Of a stretch of 64,000 bases of DNA, positions 7,702 through 17,777 are shown piece after piece (positions within the stretch are counted from its first letter, which is position 1; each line of letters starts with the position of its first letter). A model generated the notes under the pieces. The model did not search any database, was not told where the DNA came from, and worked only from the letters and a program-made list of their open reading frames with translations. Made by a program: the position numbers and the translations under genes. Source of the DNA: a bacterium (GTDB taxonomy: Bacteria; Zixibacteria; MSB-5A5; WJJR01). The stretch lies in the NCBI GenBank assembly GCA_021813505.1, contig JAKAKI010000075.1, positions 1 through 64,000 of the forward strand. The letters run 5' to 3'.

Positions 7702-7730
7702 TTGACAGCAGGGGAAAAGAGTGGTAAAAT
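7702..7730 (+). promoter_or_regulatory. Strong sigma-70-type promoter of htrA
   Basis: TTGACA (7702-7707), 17 bp, TAAAAT (7725-7730), close to ideal. The TTG used by the ORF track as the htrA start is part of this -35 box, so translation must begin downstream. The leader contains a hairpin (GCCGTCC-TTC-GGACGGC, 7754-7770) ahead of the ribosome binding site. Confidence 0.75.
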
Positions 7731-7794
7731 GAAAAATTGTGTCGCAAAAACAGGCCGTCCTTCGGACGGCAGGCGGCCAGCGGGGAGAAGTGGG

Positions 7795-9267
7795 ATGGTC
7801 CGGCATTCGGTTCGTACGGCCACGGCTGCAGGAATCGCTTTCATAGTAGTCTCCATCCTGGTGGGCTTGCCCGCCGGTGCTCCGTACGCGCAGATGGCGC
7901 CGCCCGGAGGCTGGGTCGATGGCCAGGGACACAGTCCCTTTGTGAAAGTTGTCAGCCGTATTAAAGATGCGGTCGTCAACATCTCCGCGGAGAAAGTGGT
8001 CGACGTCCGCCAATACCATAATTTCGATCCGTTCTTCGAAGACTGGTTTGGCCCCAACGAGCCGCGCAGCCGCCAGAAGTCTCTGGGGTCCGGTTTCATC
8101 TTCCGCGCCGATGGTTACATCCTGACGAACTACCACGTCGTCAACGGTGCGGACAACATCACGGTGCGCCTCTCCGATAAGATGGAACTGCCCGGCGAGA
8201 TTGTCGGCACCGATGCCGCCACCGATCTCGCGGTATTGCGGATCAAGGCCGATCACGAATTGCCGGCGATTCCGATGGGCAATTCCGATTCGTTGCTTGT
8301 GGGTGATTGGGTTGTGGCCATCGGCAATCCATTCCCGTCGCAGGGTCTGGACCGCACCGTCACGGTCGGCGTGGTCTCCGCACTGGGCCGCAAAGATCTC
8401 TACTTTGGCGACGAGACGCCGACCTACCAGAATTACATTCAGACCGATGCCTCGATCAATCCGGGAAACTCCGGCGGGCCGCTGGTCAATCTGCGCGGGG
8501 AAGCGGTCGGCATCAATGCCGCGATCGCCAGTCCCAATGGCGCCAACGTCGGCATCGGGTTCGCCATCCCGATCAGTTTCGCCGAGATGGTTGTCCCGGA
8601 TCTGCTGGCCAAGGGCGCCGTGGCCCGTGGCTGGCTGGGAATCCAGCCGCGCGATCTCACTTGGGATGACGCGGAGGCCGAGGGACTCAAGTCGGCCGAC
8701 GGAGTTGTCGTCAACCGTGTGATTGCGAATACGCCGGCCGAGAAGGCCGGACTGCGCGTCGGCGATGTGATCACGGCCGTCGATGGGCGGCGTGTCGAAG
8801 ACGCCCAGAGCTTCATGCAGATCATCTGGCAAACACGGGTCGGCAGCATCGTGAAGCTGGATGTCCTGCGCCGTGGCACCGCACAGACTATCAGCGTCGC
8901 ACTCGATGATCGCAGCAAATACCAGCCCGCTTCCGCCACCGAGGATTCGGCGCCAGTCAGGGAACTGCCCAAATGGCTTGGACTCGAAGTGGCCACCGCC
9001 ACGCAGGACATGGCGGAGGAGTACGGGACGGAATTTCATCCGGGAGTGGTTGTGACGGAAGCCGACCGATCCGGCCCCGCTTACGACAAAGGCATTCGCG
9101 TTGGCATGATCATATCGGAGATTGATCATACGGAAATCAAAAACCGTGCGGACTATCTGGACGTCGTCGGGAAACTGGGTGAGGTCACCCGGCCCGTGTC
9201 GCTCCTGGTCTATGACCGTCGGGGCAACACCGGCTACATCGCGGTCCGCCCGGAACGCAAGAAGTGA
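7795..9267 (+). CDS. htrA: HtrA/DegP-family periplasmic serine protease
   Basis: This is a 490-aa protein quality-control protease and chaperone of the periplasm. The start is ATG 7795: it has GGGGAGAAG a few bases upstream, lies about 58 bp after the predicted transcription start, and yields a signal peptide ending near GAPYA. The track's start at 7702 lies inside the promoter. The trypsin-like domain has a complete triad: His114 (TNYHVV), Asp144 (AATDLAV) and Ser226 (NPGNSGGPL). Two PDZ domains follow (about 275-375 and 395-485), the second more divergent. The sigma factor gene follows within about 25 bp and has no promoter of its own, so the two are probably co-transcribed; this would link envelope stress protease to a housekeeping-type sigma factor (inference). 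Confidence 0.95.
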   Translation: MVRHSVRTATAAGIAFIVVSILVGLPAGAPYAQMAPPGGWVDGQGHSPFVKVVSRIKDAVVNISAEKVVDVRQYHNFDPFFEDWFGPNEPRSRQKSLGSGFIFRADGYILTNYHVVNGADNITVRLSDKMELPGEIVGTDAATDLAVLRIKADHELPAIPMGNSDSLLVGDWVVAIGNPFPSQGLDRTVTVGVVSALGRKDLYFGDETPTYQNYIQTDASINPGNSGGPLVNLRGEAVGINAAIASPNGANVGIGFAIPISFAEMVVPDLLAKGAVARGWLGIQPRDLTWDDAEAEGLKSADGVVVNRVIANTPAEKAGLRVGDVITAVDGRRVEDAQSFMQIIWQTRVGSIVKLDVLRRGTAQTISVALDDRSKYQPASATEDSAPVRELPKWLGLEVATATQDMAEEYGTEFHPGVVVTEADRSGPAYDKGIRVGMIISEIDHTEIKNRADYLDVVGKLGEVTRPVSLLVYDRRGNTGYIAVRPERKK

Positions 9268-9277
9268 ACCTTAAGCC

Positions 9278-9284
9278 AAGGAGG
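9278..9284 (+). promoter_or_regulatory. Strong Shine-Dalgarno that decides the sigma factor start
   Basis: AAGGAGG is a full anti-16S complement. It abuts an ATG at 9285 with no spacing and lies 8 nt before an ACG at 9293. Because no ATG, GTG or TTG occurs in the sigma-factor frame at a proper distance, this site is key evidence that translation starts here and not at the TTG at 9377. Confidence 0.6.
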
Positions 9285-9292
9285 ATGCGGGT

Positions 9293-10150
9293 ACGAGCGT
9301 AAGAACCTCTCGCAAGTACCGGGACGAAGACCGGTCATTAGATCTGTACCTCAAGGAGATTGGGGAGACTCCGCTTTTGACCGCGGCCGAGGAAGTATCC
9401 CTCGCCAAGCGGATCAAGCAGGGCGATCAAACCGCCCTCGAGAGACTCACCAAGGCGAACCTGCGCTTTGTCGTGTCCGTTGCCAAACAGTATCAGAACC
9501 AGGGCCTGTCCCTGGCCGACTTGATCAATGAGGGCAATATCGGACTGATCAAAGCCGCCAAGCGTTTCGATGAAACGCGCGGATTCAAGTTCATCTCGTA
9601 CGCGGTCTGGTGGATTCGTCAGGCGATCCTGCAGGCGTTGGCCGAGCAGTCGCGCATCGTGCGGCTCCCGCTCAACCGGGTCGGAACGCTCCACAAGATC
9701 GGCAAAGTGGCCTCATCCCTCGAACAGGAATATGGCCGCGAACCGTCGCCGGAGGAGATTGCCAAGGAACTGGAACTCTCCGAGTCCGAGGTGTCCGATA
9801 CGCTGAAAATCTCCAATACGCATCTGTCGTTGGATGCGCCGTTCTCCACGTCCGAGGACAACAGTTTGATCGATGTCCTCGAGGACGAGCTCCAGCCCGC
9901 TCCGGATGAATCGCTACTCAAGGAGTCGCTGCGCGTTGAGATCGAAAAATCCCTCGAGACCCTCACGCCGCGCGAGGCCGAAGTAATCAATCTGTATTTC
10001 GGCTTGTCACATGAAAAGGCGCTGACACTGGAAGAGATCGGTGTGCGCTTTTCCCTGACCCGTGAGCGCGTCCGGCAAATCAAGGAGAAAGCCATCCGGC
10101 GCCTGCGCCATGCGTCGCGCAGCAAGTCTCTGCGCGCCTATCTGGACTGA
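9293..10150 (+). CDS. rpoD: RpoD-type (group 1/2) RNA polymerase sigma factor, start codon anomalous
   Basis: This is a short primary-type sigma factor of about 285 aa without region 1.1, as in Bacteroidota-type RpoD. Region 1.2 ([15 protein letters not shown]), region 2 ([50 protein letters not shown]), region 3 ([19 protein letters not shown]) and region 4 ([34 protein letters not shown]) are all intact. The ORF track starts at TTG 9377, which would cut off region 1.2, yet coding clearly extends upstream. In that frame there is no ATG, GTG or TTG after the upstream gene. An ACG at 9293 has ideal spacing from AAGGAGG; alternatively ATG CGG at 9285 (RpoD proteins of this type often begin MR) is the true start and one base is missing before 9300. 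I annotate from 9293. A strong terminator follows. Confidence 0.85.
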
Positions 10151-10182: not shown

Positions 10183-10217
10183 AGCCCCGTCTCGCGTGAG
10201 TGAGACGGGGTTTTTTT
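10183..10217 (+). terminator. Rho-independent terminator after sigma factor
   Basis: CCCCGTCTC (10185-10193) pairs with GAGACGGGG (10202-10210) and is followed by seven T residues. Confidence 0.95.
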
Positions 10218-10242: not shown

Positions 10243-10378
10243 CCCTCACCCCCGACCCCAGAGGGAGAGGGGAGAAGAACTTTGACTGCGCAACGTCTTC
10301 CGTTTCACGGCAGGCTGCTCCCTCTCCCTTTCACGGCAGGCTGCTCCCTCTCCCTCAGGGAGAGGGTCGGGGTGAGGG
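10243..10378. repeat. Palindromic intergenic element with internal 26-bp tandem duplication
   Basis: The ends are inverted repeats (CCCTCACCCCCGACCCC at 10243-10259 against GGGTCGGGGTGAGGG at 10364-10378). Inside lie two identical 26-bp copies beginning TTTCACGGCAGGCTGCTCCC (10303-10328 and 10329-10354), and CCCTCTCCCT-CAGGGAGAGGG forms a hairpin. The ORFs predicted across it (for example 10200-10538 and 10282-10545) are repeat translations, not genes. REP- or MITE-like. Confidence 0.7.
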
Positions 10379-13254: not shown

Positions 13255-13824
13255 TCAGGTCCAAATCGACTTCAGCTTCTTCTTGAGCAGCTCGCGAGCC
13301 CGGAAAATGCGCGCTTTGACCGTGCCCACTGGCAGCCCAAGCTGATCGGCGATCTCTTCGTACGATTTGTCCTGCTGATGGCGCAGGACGATGACTTCGC
13401 GGTATTTCGGGGGCAGAGACGAGATGGCGTCCTGGATGGTGATTTCGCGGCGCCGCCGGTACAGATTCTCTTCGGGATTCTGCGACCAGTCCGGTACCTC
13501 AAAGCCGACCTCCCCGTCTTTCGTCTGGATAGGTTTGTCCAGCGACAGGGCTTCGATCCGCTTCTTGCGCAGAAAGTCGATGGCGTTGTTGGCGGCGATT
13601 TTGTAGAGCCATGTCGAGAACCGGTACTCGAAGCGGTAGGTCGCCAGCGACCCAAACGCTTTCATGAACGTCTCTTGCACCAGGTCAGCCGACTCGTCAG
13701 GATTCCGCACGATCTTGAAGATCACGTGGTAGATCGACTGACGGTGCCGGTTCAGGAGGTCCCGGTACGCCCGCTGATCACCACCCAATGCTTGTTTGAT
13801 CAACTGCTCGTCCGACTCGGCCAC
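13255..13824 (-). CDS. ECF-type RNA polymerase sigma factor
   Basis: This is a 189-aa extracytoplasmic-function sigma factor. Region 2 (LLNRHRQSIYHVIFKIV, ADLVQETFMKAFGSL, FSTWLYKIAANNAIDFLRKKR) and region 4 (LPPKYREVIVLRHQQDKSYEEIA, LPVGTVKARIFRARELLKKKL) are intact and of RpoE-like type; the lengthened linker (about 95-120) is common. It heads a minus-strand operon with the DUF4097 and polymer-forming proteins. No zinc-binding anti-sigma gene follows it directly, so its control is unclear. The 5' region (13825-13960) has no convincing -35/-10 pair on the minus strand, and autoregulation through an ECF promoter is possible but not shown. Confidence 0.92.
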   Translation of the reverse strand: MAESDEQLIKQALGGDQRAYRDLLNRHRQSIYHVIFKIVRNPDESADLVQETFMKAFGSLATYRFEYRFSTWLYKIAANNAIDFLRKKRIEALSLDKPIQTKDGEVGFEVPDWSQNPEENLYRRRREITIQDAISSLPPKYREVIVLRHQQDKSYEEIADQLGLPVGTVKARIFRARELLKKKLKSIWT

Positions 13825-17051: not shown

Positions 17052-17777
17052 ATGTCGAAACGGAAGACGACAACCGAACGCCCCAAACGTCCCCGCCCGC
17101 CCAAATCGGCCGGGGAACGGCCCCCTGTTGCCACGGCGCGAGTCCCGGCACCGGTGCTCCCTATAGAGCCACCGGACGACGAAAACGACGAGACCCATAT
17201 TAAAGAGGTCATCAAAGAGGTTCAGGCCGGCAAGGGCCATCTCTTCCGCGAGATTATCGACCGCTACCGCTCCCAAGTCACCGGGATCGCGTTCAAGATG
17301 GTTGGCGACTACGACGACGCCAAAGACATAACGCAGATGGTCTTCGTGAAGACCTTCTACAATATCAACCGTTTCGATGCCACGAAGCGATTCTCCACCT
17401 GGCTGTACCGGATCGCGGTCAATGCGTCCATCGATTACATCCGCAAGTTCAAGAAGCACAAGTTCGAGGAGCTCGATGATCTGACCGAGCCACGAGACGC
17501 GCCGCTCCAGACGCAGACTCCCGAACAGGTTTACCGCCTCAAGGAGTTGCGTGAATACGTCCTCAAAGCCGCGCGCAAGCTCAACGAGAAGCAGTACACG
17601 GCGTTCGTGCTCAAGGACCTCGAGGGCCTGGATATCGACGAAATCGCCCAGATCATGGGCATGCCCCAGGCCACCGTGCGCTGGTATCTCCATCGGGCGC
17701 GCAAGCACTTGCGCACCGACCTTCGCCGCCACTTCGGCCCGATTCTCAACAAACTGGGTATCATCGACCACTCTTGA
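17052..17777 (+). CDS. Sigma-70 family (ECF-type) RNA polymerase sigma factor
   Basis: This 241-aa sigma factor has a long charged, proline-rich N-terminal extension (1-55) before region 2 (FREIIDRYRSQVTGIAFKM, DAKDITQMVFVKTFYNI, FSTWLYRIAVNASIDYIRKF). Region 4 is ARKLNEKQYTAFVLKDLEGLDIDEIA, then MPQATVRWYLHRARKHLR. ATG 17052 is preferred over the track's TTG at 17040. The DUF3987-like GDYDDAKDI boundary is unremarkable. No anti-sigma gene is adjacent; the next gene is a metal-dependent hydrolase 143 bp away. AT-rich DNA upstream (16940-16975) contains TTGCGA-16-TATACG, a weak promoter candidate. Confidence 0.9.
   Translation: MSKRKTTTERPKRPRPPKSAGERPPVATARVPAPVLPIEPPDDENDETHIKEVIKEVQAGKGHLFREIIDRYRSQVTGIAFKMVGDYDDAKDITQMVFVKTFYNINRFDATKRFSTWLYRIAVNASIDYIRKFKKHKFEELDDLTEPRDAPLQTQTPEQVYRLKELREYVLKAARKLNEKQYTAFVLKDLEGLDIDEIAQIMGMPQATVRWYLHRARKHLRTDLRRHFGPILNKLGIIDHS

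Follow-up and report, generated by a model that had tools for sequence, protein, structure and literature searches.

A conserved ACG codon as the probable translation start of a primary sigma factor gene in a family of uncultured bacteria, probably Zixibacteria

The window, by which we mean the whole stretch of 64,000 nucleotides that was analysed, carries a protease gene of the htrA/degP type followed, on the same strand, by the gene of a sigma factor that has no orthodox start codon (ATG, GTG or TTG) at the expected place. The features to which we refer are the following:

7702..9267, + strand: htrA/degP-type protease gene, as given in the table of open reading frames (ORFs); its end lies 25 nt 5′ of the ACG at 9293
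9278..9284, + strand: Shine-Dalgarno (SD) sequence AAGGAGG, read directly; duplex with the 16S tail of about -11.4 kcal/mol
9285..9290, + strand: ATG CGG, out of frame; judged non-functional, as it adjoins the SD and is not conserved
9293..9295, + strand: ACG, the proposed translation start of the sigma factor, 8 nt after the SD, with U at -1 and A at +4
9293..10150, + strand: primary sigma factor gene of the RpoD/SigA type, 285 amino acids, with regions 1.2, 2, 3 and 4 and without region 1.1
9335..9430, + strand: segment coding for sigma region 1.2 (PF00140, residues 15-46), which starts 5′ of the TTG at 9377 and spans it
9377..9379, + strand: internal TTG chosen by ORF callers, judged not to be the start; the same codon is CTC in one relative (G005, see below)
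10185..10217, + strand: likely intrinsic terminator after the sigma gene, CCCCGTCTC..GAGACGGGG followed by a T run, found by inspection only

The sigma frame, which ends at position 10150, is open from just past an in-frame TAA at 9272-9274, itself located 3′ of the htrA stop codon (9265-9267). Reading of the sequence and of its translation found no ATG, GTG or TTG in this frame between the TAA and region 1.2; the first such codon is the TTG at 9377, inside region 1.2. A preliminary description, made from the letters alone, had reported this absence from the htrA stop onwards and had placed region 1.2 upstream of the TTG used by the ORF track, and both statements hold, the PF00140 match beginning at 9335 and thus before 9377. 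It was also correct in setting a perfect AAGGAGG 8 nt before the ACG at 9293 and directly on the ATG CGG at 9285, which belongs to another frame, reads MRVRA and runs into a TAA at 9300 after five codons. As assessed by tblastn, htrA lies upstream of the sigma gene at all loci of the order and at nearly all of the other loci examined in the class.

Read from the ACG, the protein matches the Pfam families for sigma regions 1.2 (residues 15-46), 2, 3 and 4, in each case above the cut-off. Its best NCBIfam matches carry RpoD names, but score under the full-length curated cut-offs, and structures of SigA/RpoD proteins are matched as well, SigA at 6e-84. A search of the whole genome, which is 97% complete, returned the sigma gene as the only RpoD-type homologue, the next match being 35% identical; the other Sigma70_r2 matches are distinct from the primary sigma factor, and a second, normally started copy of RpoD was sought in the same search and not found. 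The nearest named relatives are labelled Zixibacteria or Zixiibacteriota, with Calditrichaeota at a similar distance, which makes the assignment to that phylum probable. In its length of about 285 residues, its RpoD-like regions 1.2 to 4 and its lack of region 1.1, the protein resembles the short primary sigma factors of the Bacteroidetes type; in the loci from Bacteroidota that were examined, however, ATG AGG stands at the start.

To follow the start codon among relatives we used nine genomes of the order, eight of which hold the sigma gene: six belong to the family of the window (G000 to G005; separate assemblies, from four genera) and two to a sister family, f2 (G007 and G008). The arrangement AGGAGG-N(6-8)-ACG-AGC occurs in six out of six family genomes, none of which has ATG, GTG or TTG at the position of the ACG; in full, AGGAGG is followed by 6-8 variable bases ending in GGT and then by ACG AGC GT(A/C). 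The upstream sequence and the length of the spacer vary between these leaders, whereas the ACG, the range of SD spacing and the frame are kept. The SD duplexes have energies of -10 to -12 kcal/mol and place codon 1 within the usual spacing window; in G004 the duplex of best energy extends further, its AGGAGG core being 6 nt from the ACG. No other codon of the start stretch combines conservation and good spacing with being one substitution away from ATG, as the ACG does. Codon 3 (GTA/GTC) was considered as the start used in the family and rejected, as it is variable and lies 12-14 nt from the SD.

The preliminary description had offered two explanations, initiation at the ACG or loss of one base between 9285 and 9300, through a real frameshift or a fault of assembly, with the ATG CGG at 9285 as the true start. 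The comparison decides for the first, the ACG being conserved in all six genomes together with its spacing and its frame. The second, which we extend to sequencing errors, draws on the position of ATG CGG directly after the SD and on the -1 relation of its frame to the sigma frame; against it, the same frame and the same ACG recur in five other assemblies, the ATG is absent from G002, G003 and G005, and in the window it abuts the SD without a spacer, and we reject a missing base or a frameshift as extremely improbable. The preliminary description had also suggested that a start with Met-Arg would match homologues of this sigma type and had advised an alignment of the N terminus with close homologues. 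In that alignment the ACG is aligned and invariant in the six family genomes, and the two order-mates have ATC. The match to a Met-Arg start did not materialize: close homologues begin with M-A or M-S (GTG GCT, TTG GCN, ACG AGC), the second residue of the sigma protein is Ser/Ala, like that of most class members, and the N terminus MRITKQ was seen only in distant sequences of the Ignavibacteria type. The recurrence of the SD together with ACG AGC in all six family genomes goes beyond chance, and the lack of an orthodox start is a real property of the gene and not an assembly error.

In G004 the ATG corresponding to 9285 is in frame (ATG GGT ACG), two codons 5′ of the ACG and 0 nt from the SD core. 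Such an ATG could be the start used in G004, and possibly the ancestral one, in which case the ACG would be an internal Thr codon; the other five genomes, however, have no in-frame ATG, GTG or TTG near the SD, and the ATG of G004 follows immediately on AGGAGG, which makes this a very unlikely reading. In both genomes of f2, the codon aligned with the ACG is ATC. A GTG two codons 3′ of it is a possible alternative start in G007, where G008 has GTA, and the AGGGGGT sequence conserved in f2 favours ATC as the start in both. The ATC codons also bear on the idea that C-to-U editing of the mRNA converts ACG to AUG. Plastid genes likewise have ACG at translation starts, edited there to AUG (PMC9845219), and editing would explain how ACG is tolerated in a presumably essential gene; it has not been observed in bacteria, however (PMC9845219), and C-to-U conversion cannot turn the ATC of the order-mates into AUG. 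The ATC of f2 therefore argues against editing at the sigma start, unlike in plastids, and we consider it highly improbable.

In 89 other genomes of the class, the sigma gene starts with GTG (58), TTG (29) or ATG (2). An avoidance of ATG across the class that would be specific to the sigma gene was rejected, since rpsL of the class also uses TTG or GTG; for the same reason, the GTG and TTG starts of the sigma gene in other members of the class are uninformative. The starts of rpsL, which codes for ribosomal protein S12, are worth recording in themselves: TTG or GTG was found in nearly all of the class genomes matched, which is unusual for a highly expressed gene.

Across five species, codons 1-28 do not differ in the amino acids that they specify, while synonymous substitutions appear from the third codon onwards (GTA/GTC, AGA/CGC, ACC/ACT/ACA). 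This pattern indicates that the region is translated and that selection acts on it at the protein level. Initiation at the internal TTG (9377) would yield a sigma factor that lacks a large part of region 1.2. In its favour, the TTG is orthodox and is preceded in the window, at a distance of 9 nt, by GGGGAG, and in G001 a TAG upstream (see below) would leave it as the only start. Yet the codon is CTC in G005, GGGGAG becomes GGCGAA in three other species and GGGGAA in one, region 1.2 is a defining conserved part, and strict purifying selection acts on the protein encoded by codons 1-28; a start at the TTG is in our view highly improbable. From the leaders and alignments described, the ACG at 9293 is very probably the start of the sigma gene.

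In the sigma gene of G001 (L010, contig C90), a TAG stands where codon 25, in region 1.2, would otherwise specify Glu. The gene differs from that of G000 at 30 bases, and all differences are synonymous except this nonsense change; the htrA gene upstream of it in G001 is split between two reading frames. Since the TAG is the sole non-synonymous difference and the adjacent htrA is also disrupted in frame, we read the TAG as a fault of the assembly or else as a lesion of very recent origin; both the TAG and the split of htrA are probably assembly errors.

The invariance of the ACG should not be given too much weight. Among the conserved codons of the sigma gene, about 30% show no difference between the five species, and C is kept at 12 of the 60 four-fold sites that have C; taken alone, the invariance of the ACG is not extreme and is compatible with chance. 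The argument rests on the absence of an orthodox start and on the SD tracking the ACG. A special conservation of codons 1-22, 14 of which are identical, was rejected because it is matched elsewhere in the sigma gene. An RNA hairpin over the start (GGUAC..GUACC) was also rejected: folding is no better than that of shuffled sequences (z -0.4), the relatives fold differently, and they offer no covariation to count.

The rarity of such starts in the family was assessed on frames running from stop to stop, taken from 1.43 Mb of G000 and 1.12 Mb of G003 and matched between the two. Pairs were retained as orthologs if they were reciprocal-best, did not overlap and reached at least 45% identity; there were 303, including a few shadow frames. 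An aligned orthodox start was present near the conserved start in 205 of the 303 pairs (in G000, 147 ATG, 38 GTG and 20 TTG). Reading of 36 flagged pairs left only four real genes without an orthodox start, namely the sigma gene, infC, a gene for an ABC permease and prfB; prfB was flagged through its known programmed frameshift, and with it set aside three genes are truly without a usable orthodox start. The family does, then, use a few non-canonical starts, ATC in infC and the permease gene, and ACG in the sigma gene only among these pairs. The permease, of an amino-acid ABC transporter (G000:C66:110207-110887, - strand; L286), has a conserved ATC start behind an SD of the GGAGG type, found in G000, G001, G003, G004, G005 and G006 (also L287, L289, L291, L292; G003:C8 at about 439264), with an orthodox codon four codons after the ATC in G000 and G001. 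As for prfB (release factor 2; G000:C9), the programmed +1 frameshift site (CTT TGA C) is kept in both G000 and G003.

The initiator tRNAs are of the ordinary type with anticodon CAU; a motif search for an initiator tRNA whose anticodon would be CGU, and which could thus act as a suppressor, found CAU initiators only. Initiation factor IF3 is present and intact, and most of its residues of known importance are conserved (Y75, R99, K110, R131, R133, E134, H137 and R168 among the conserved positions). Its gene, infC, starts with ATC, ATT or ATA in nine out of nine genomes of the order (L120-L128), which is the classical autoregulatory arrangement. The IF3 of these genomes carries a low-complexity C-terminal extension that is absent from E. 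coli IF3.

At bases 1 and 2 of the codon, IF3 accepts nothing but Watson-Crick pairs in vitro (PMC10158994), and on this account ACG may be too weak to serve a presumably essential gene without help from its context. The context recalls infC: the start belongs to the class of codons discriminated by IF3, the SD is good, and E. coli infC has the same GGT before its ATT start and an A after the codon. In the anticodon loop of the initiator tRNA, A37 and U33 could presumably pair with the U (-1) and the A (+4) that flank the sigma start and are conserved. The two starts differ in that ACG mispairs at base 2, whereas the AUU or AUC of infC mispairs at base 3; moreover, infC regulates itself, whereas the product here is a sigma factor and a link to IF3 would be cross-regulation.

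We propose that ordinary fMet-tRNA (CAU) reads the ACG at 9293 and that the strong SD 6-8 nt upstream keeps the 30S subunit on the site, while the C·A mismatch at the second codon position would expose the complex to rejection by IF3. Only a small fraction of the 30S complexes would then initiate, and the sigma factor would be made at a low rate. Selection would keep the weak start, which would cap synthesis of the primary sigma factor. Synthesis would probably also be tied to the activity of IF3, as infC is for itself, and a shortage of IF3 relative to ribosomes would raise the levels of IF3 and of the sigma factor alike. What we infer here is the codon actually used, the inefficiency of initiation and the role of IF3 as controller. 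The whole explanation, with conserved and inefficient initiation at ACG, rescue by a strong SD and probable repression by IF3, has in our estimate a probability of about 0.72. Taken separately, an inefficient start maintained by selection is a likely component, and an effect of start-codon choice on the abundance of the primary sigma factor, which the preliminary description had raised, is plausible; real control by IF3 is possible but tentative.

The ACG could also be merely tolerated, with the strong SD and coupling to htrA compensating for it and with neither a regulatory role nor control by IF3. The SD is strong in all genomes, the end of htrA, the usual neighbour, is 25 nt upstream, and the clade also has ATC in the permease gene and TTG even in rpsL, so that weak starts are common. 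This view does not readily explain why the single transition to ATG was never fixed in six genomes in which most synonymous codons diverged, nor why non-canonical starts are otherwise common to only infC and one permease in 303 pairs, and we hold it to be rather unlikely. A weak ACG maintained behind a strong SD suggests instead that production of the sigma factor is deliberately held down.

The closest known case is sigR of Streptomyces, which starts with GTC, and in which exchange of that codon to ATG, or a defective IF3, leads to overproduction of the sigma factor (PMC5472188). Both are sigma genes with a conserved start other than ATG, GTG or TTG, misannotated by ORF callers, in organisms whose infC start is also non-canonical. 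They differ in that the product of sigR is a stress sigma factor, paired with an anti-sigma factor, and repression of sigR by IF3 was demonstrated experimentally (PMC5472188), whereas the gene in the window codes for a primary sigma factor and has ACG, and its repression by IF3 is a proposal. A conserved, IF3-controlled, non-canonical start on a sigma gene is thus already known from sigR; the present case differs in the primary sigma factor and in the ACG. It is conceivable, if somewhat doubtful, that an IF3-sensitive start, ACG or ATC depending on the family, is found on the primary sigma gene of the whole order and ties global transcription capacity to initiation fidelity through the device that IF3 uses for itself.

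In practice, callers that assume ATG, GTG or TTG would remove much of region 1.2 from the primary sigma factor throughout the family. ACG is among the codons that IF3 should reject and has nevertheless persisted in a presumably essential gene, and the leader offers a natural and portable means of asking whether bacteria couple transcription capacity to the fidelity of translation initiation. Two more genes with a sigma-70 region 2 lie near the primary sigma gene in the window, at 13255-13824 (- strand) and 17256-17447 (+ strand), the former of which looks like an ECF sigma factor. After the sigma gene, at about 10310-10370, the window also contains short imperfect direct repeats (TTTCACGGCAGGCTGCTCCCTCTCCCT).
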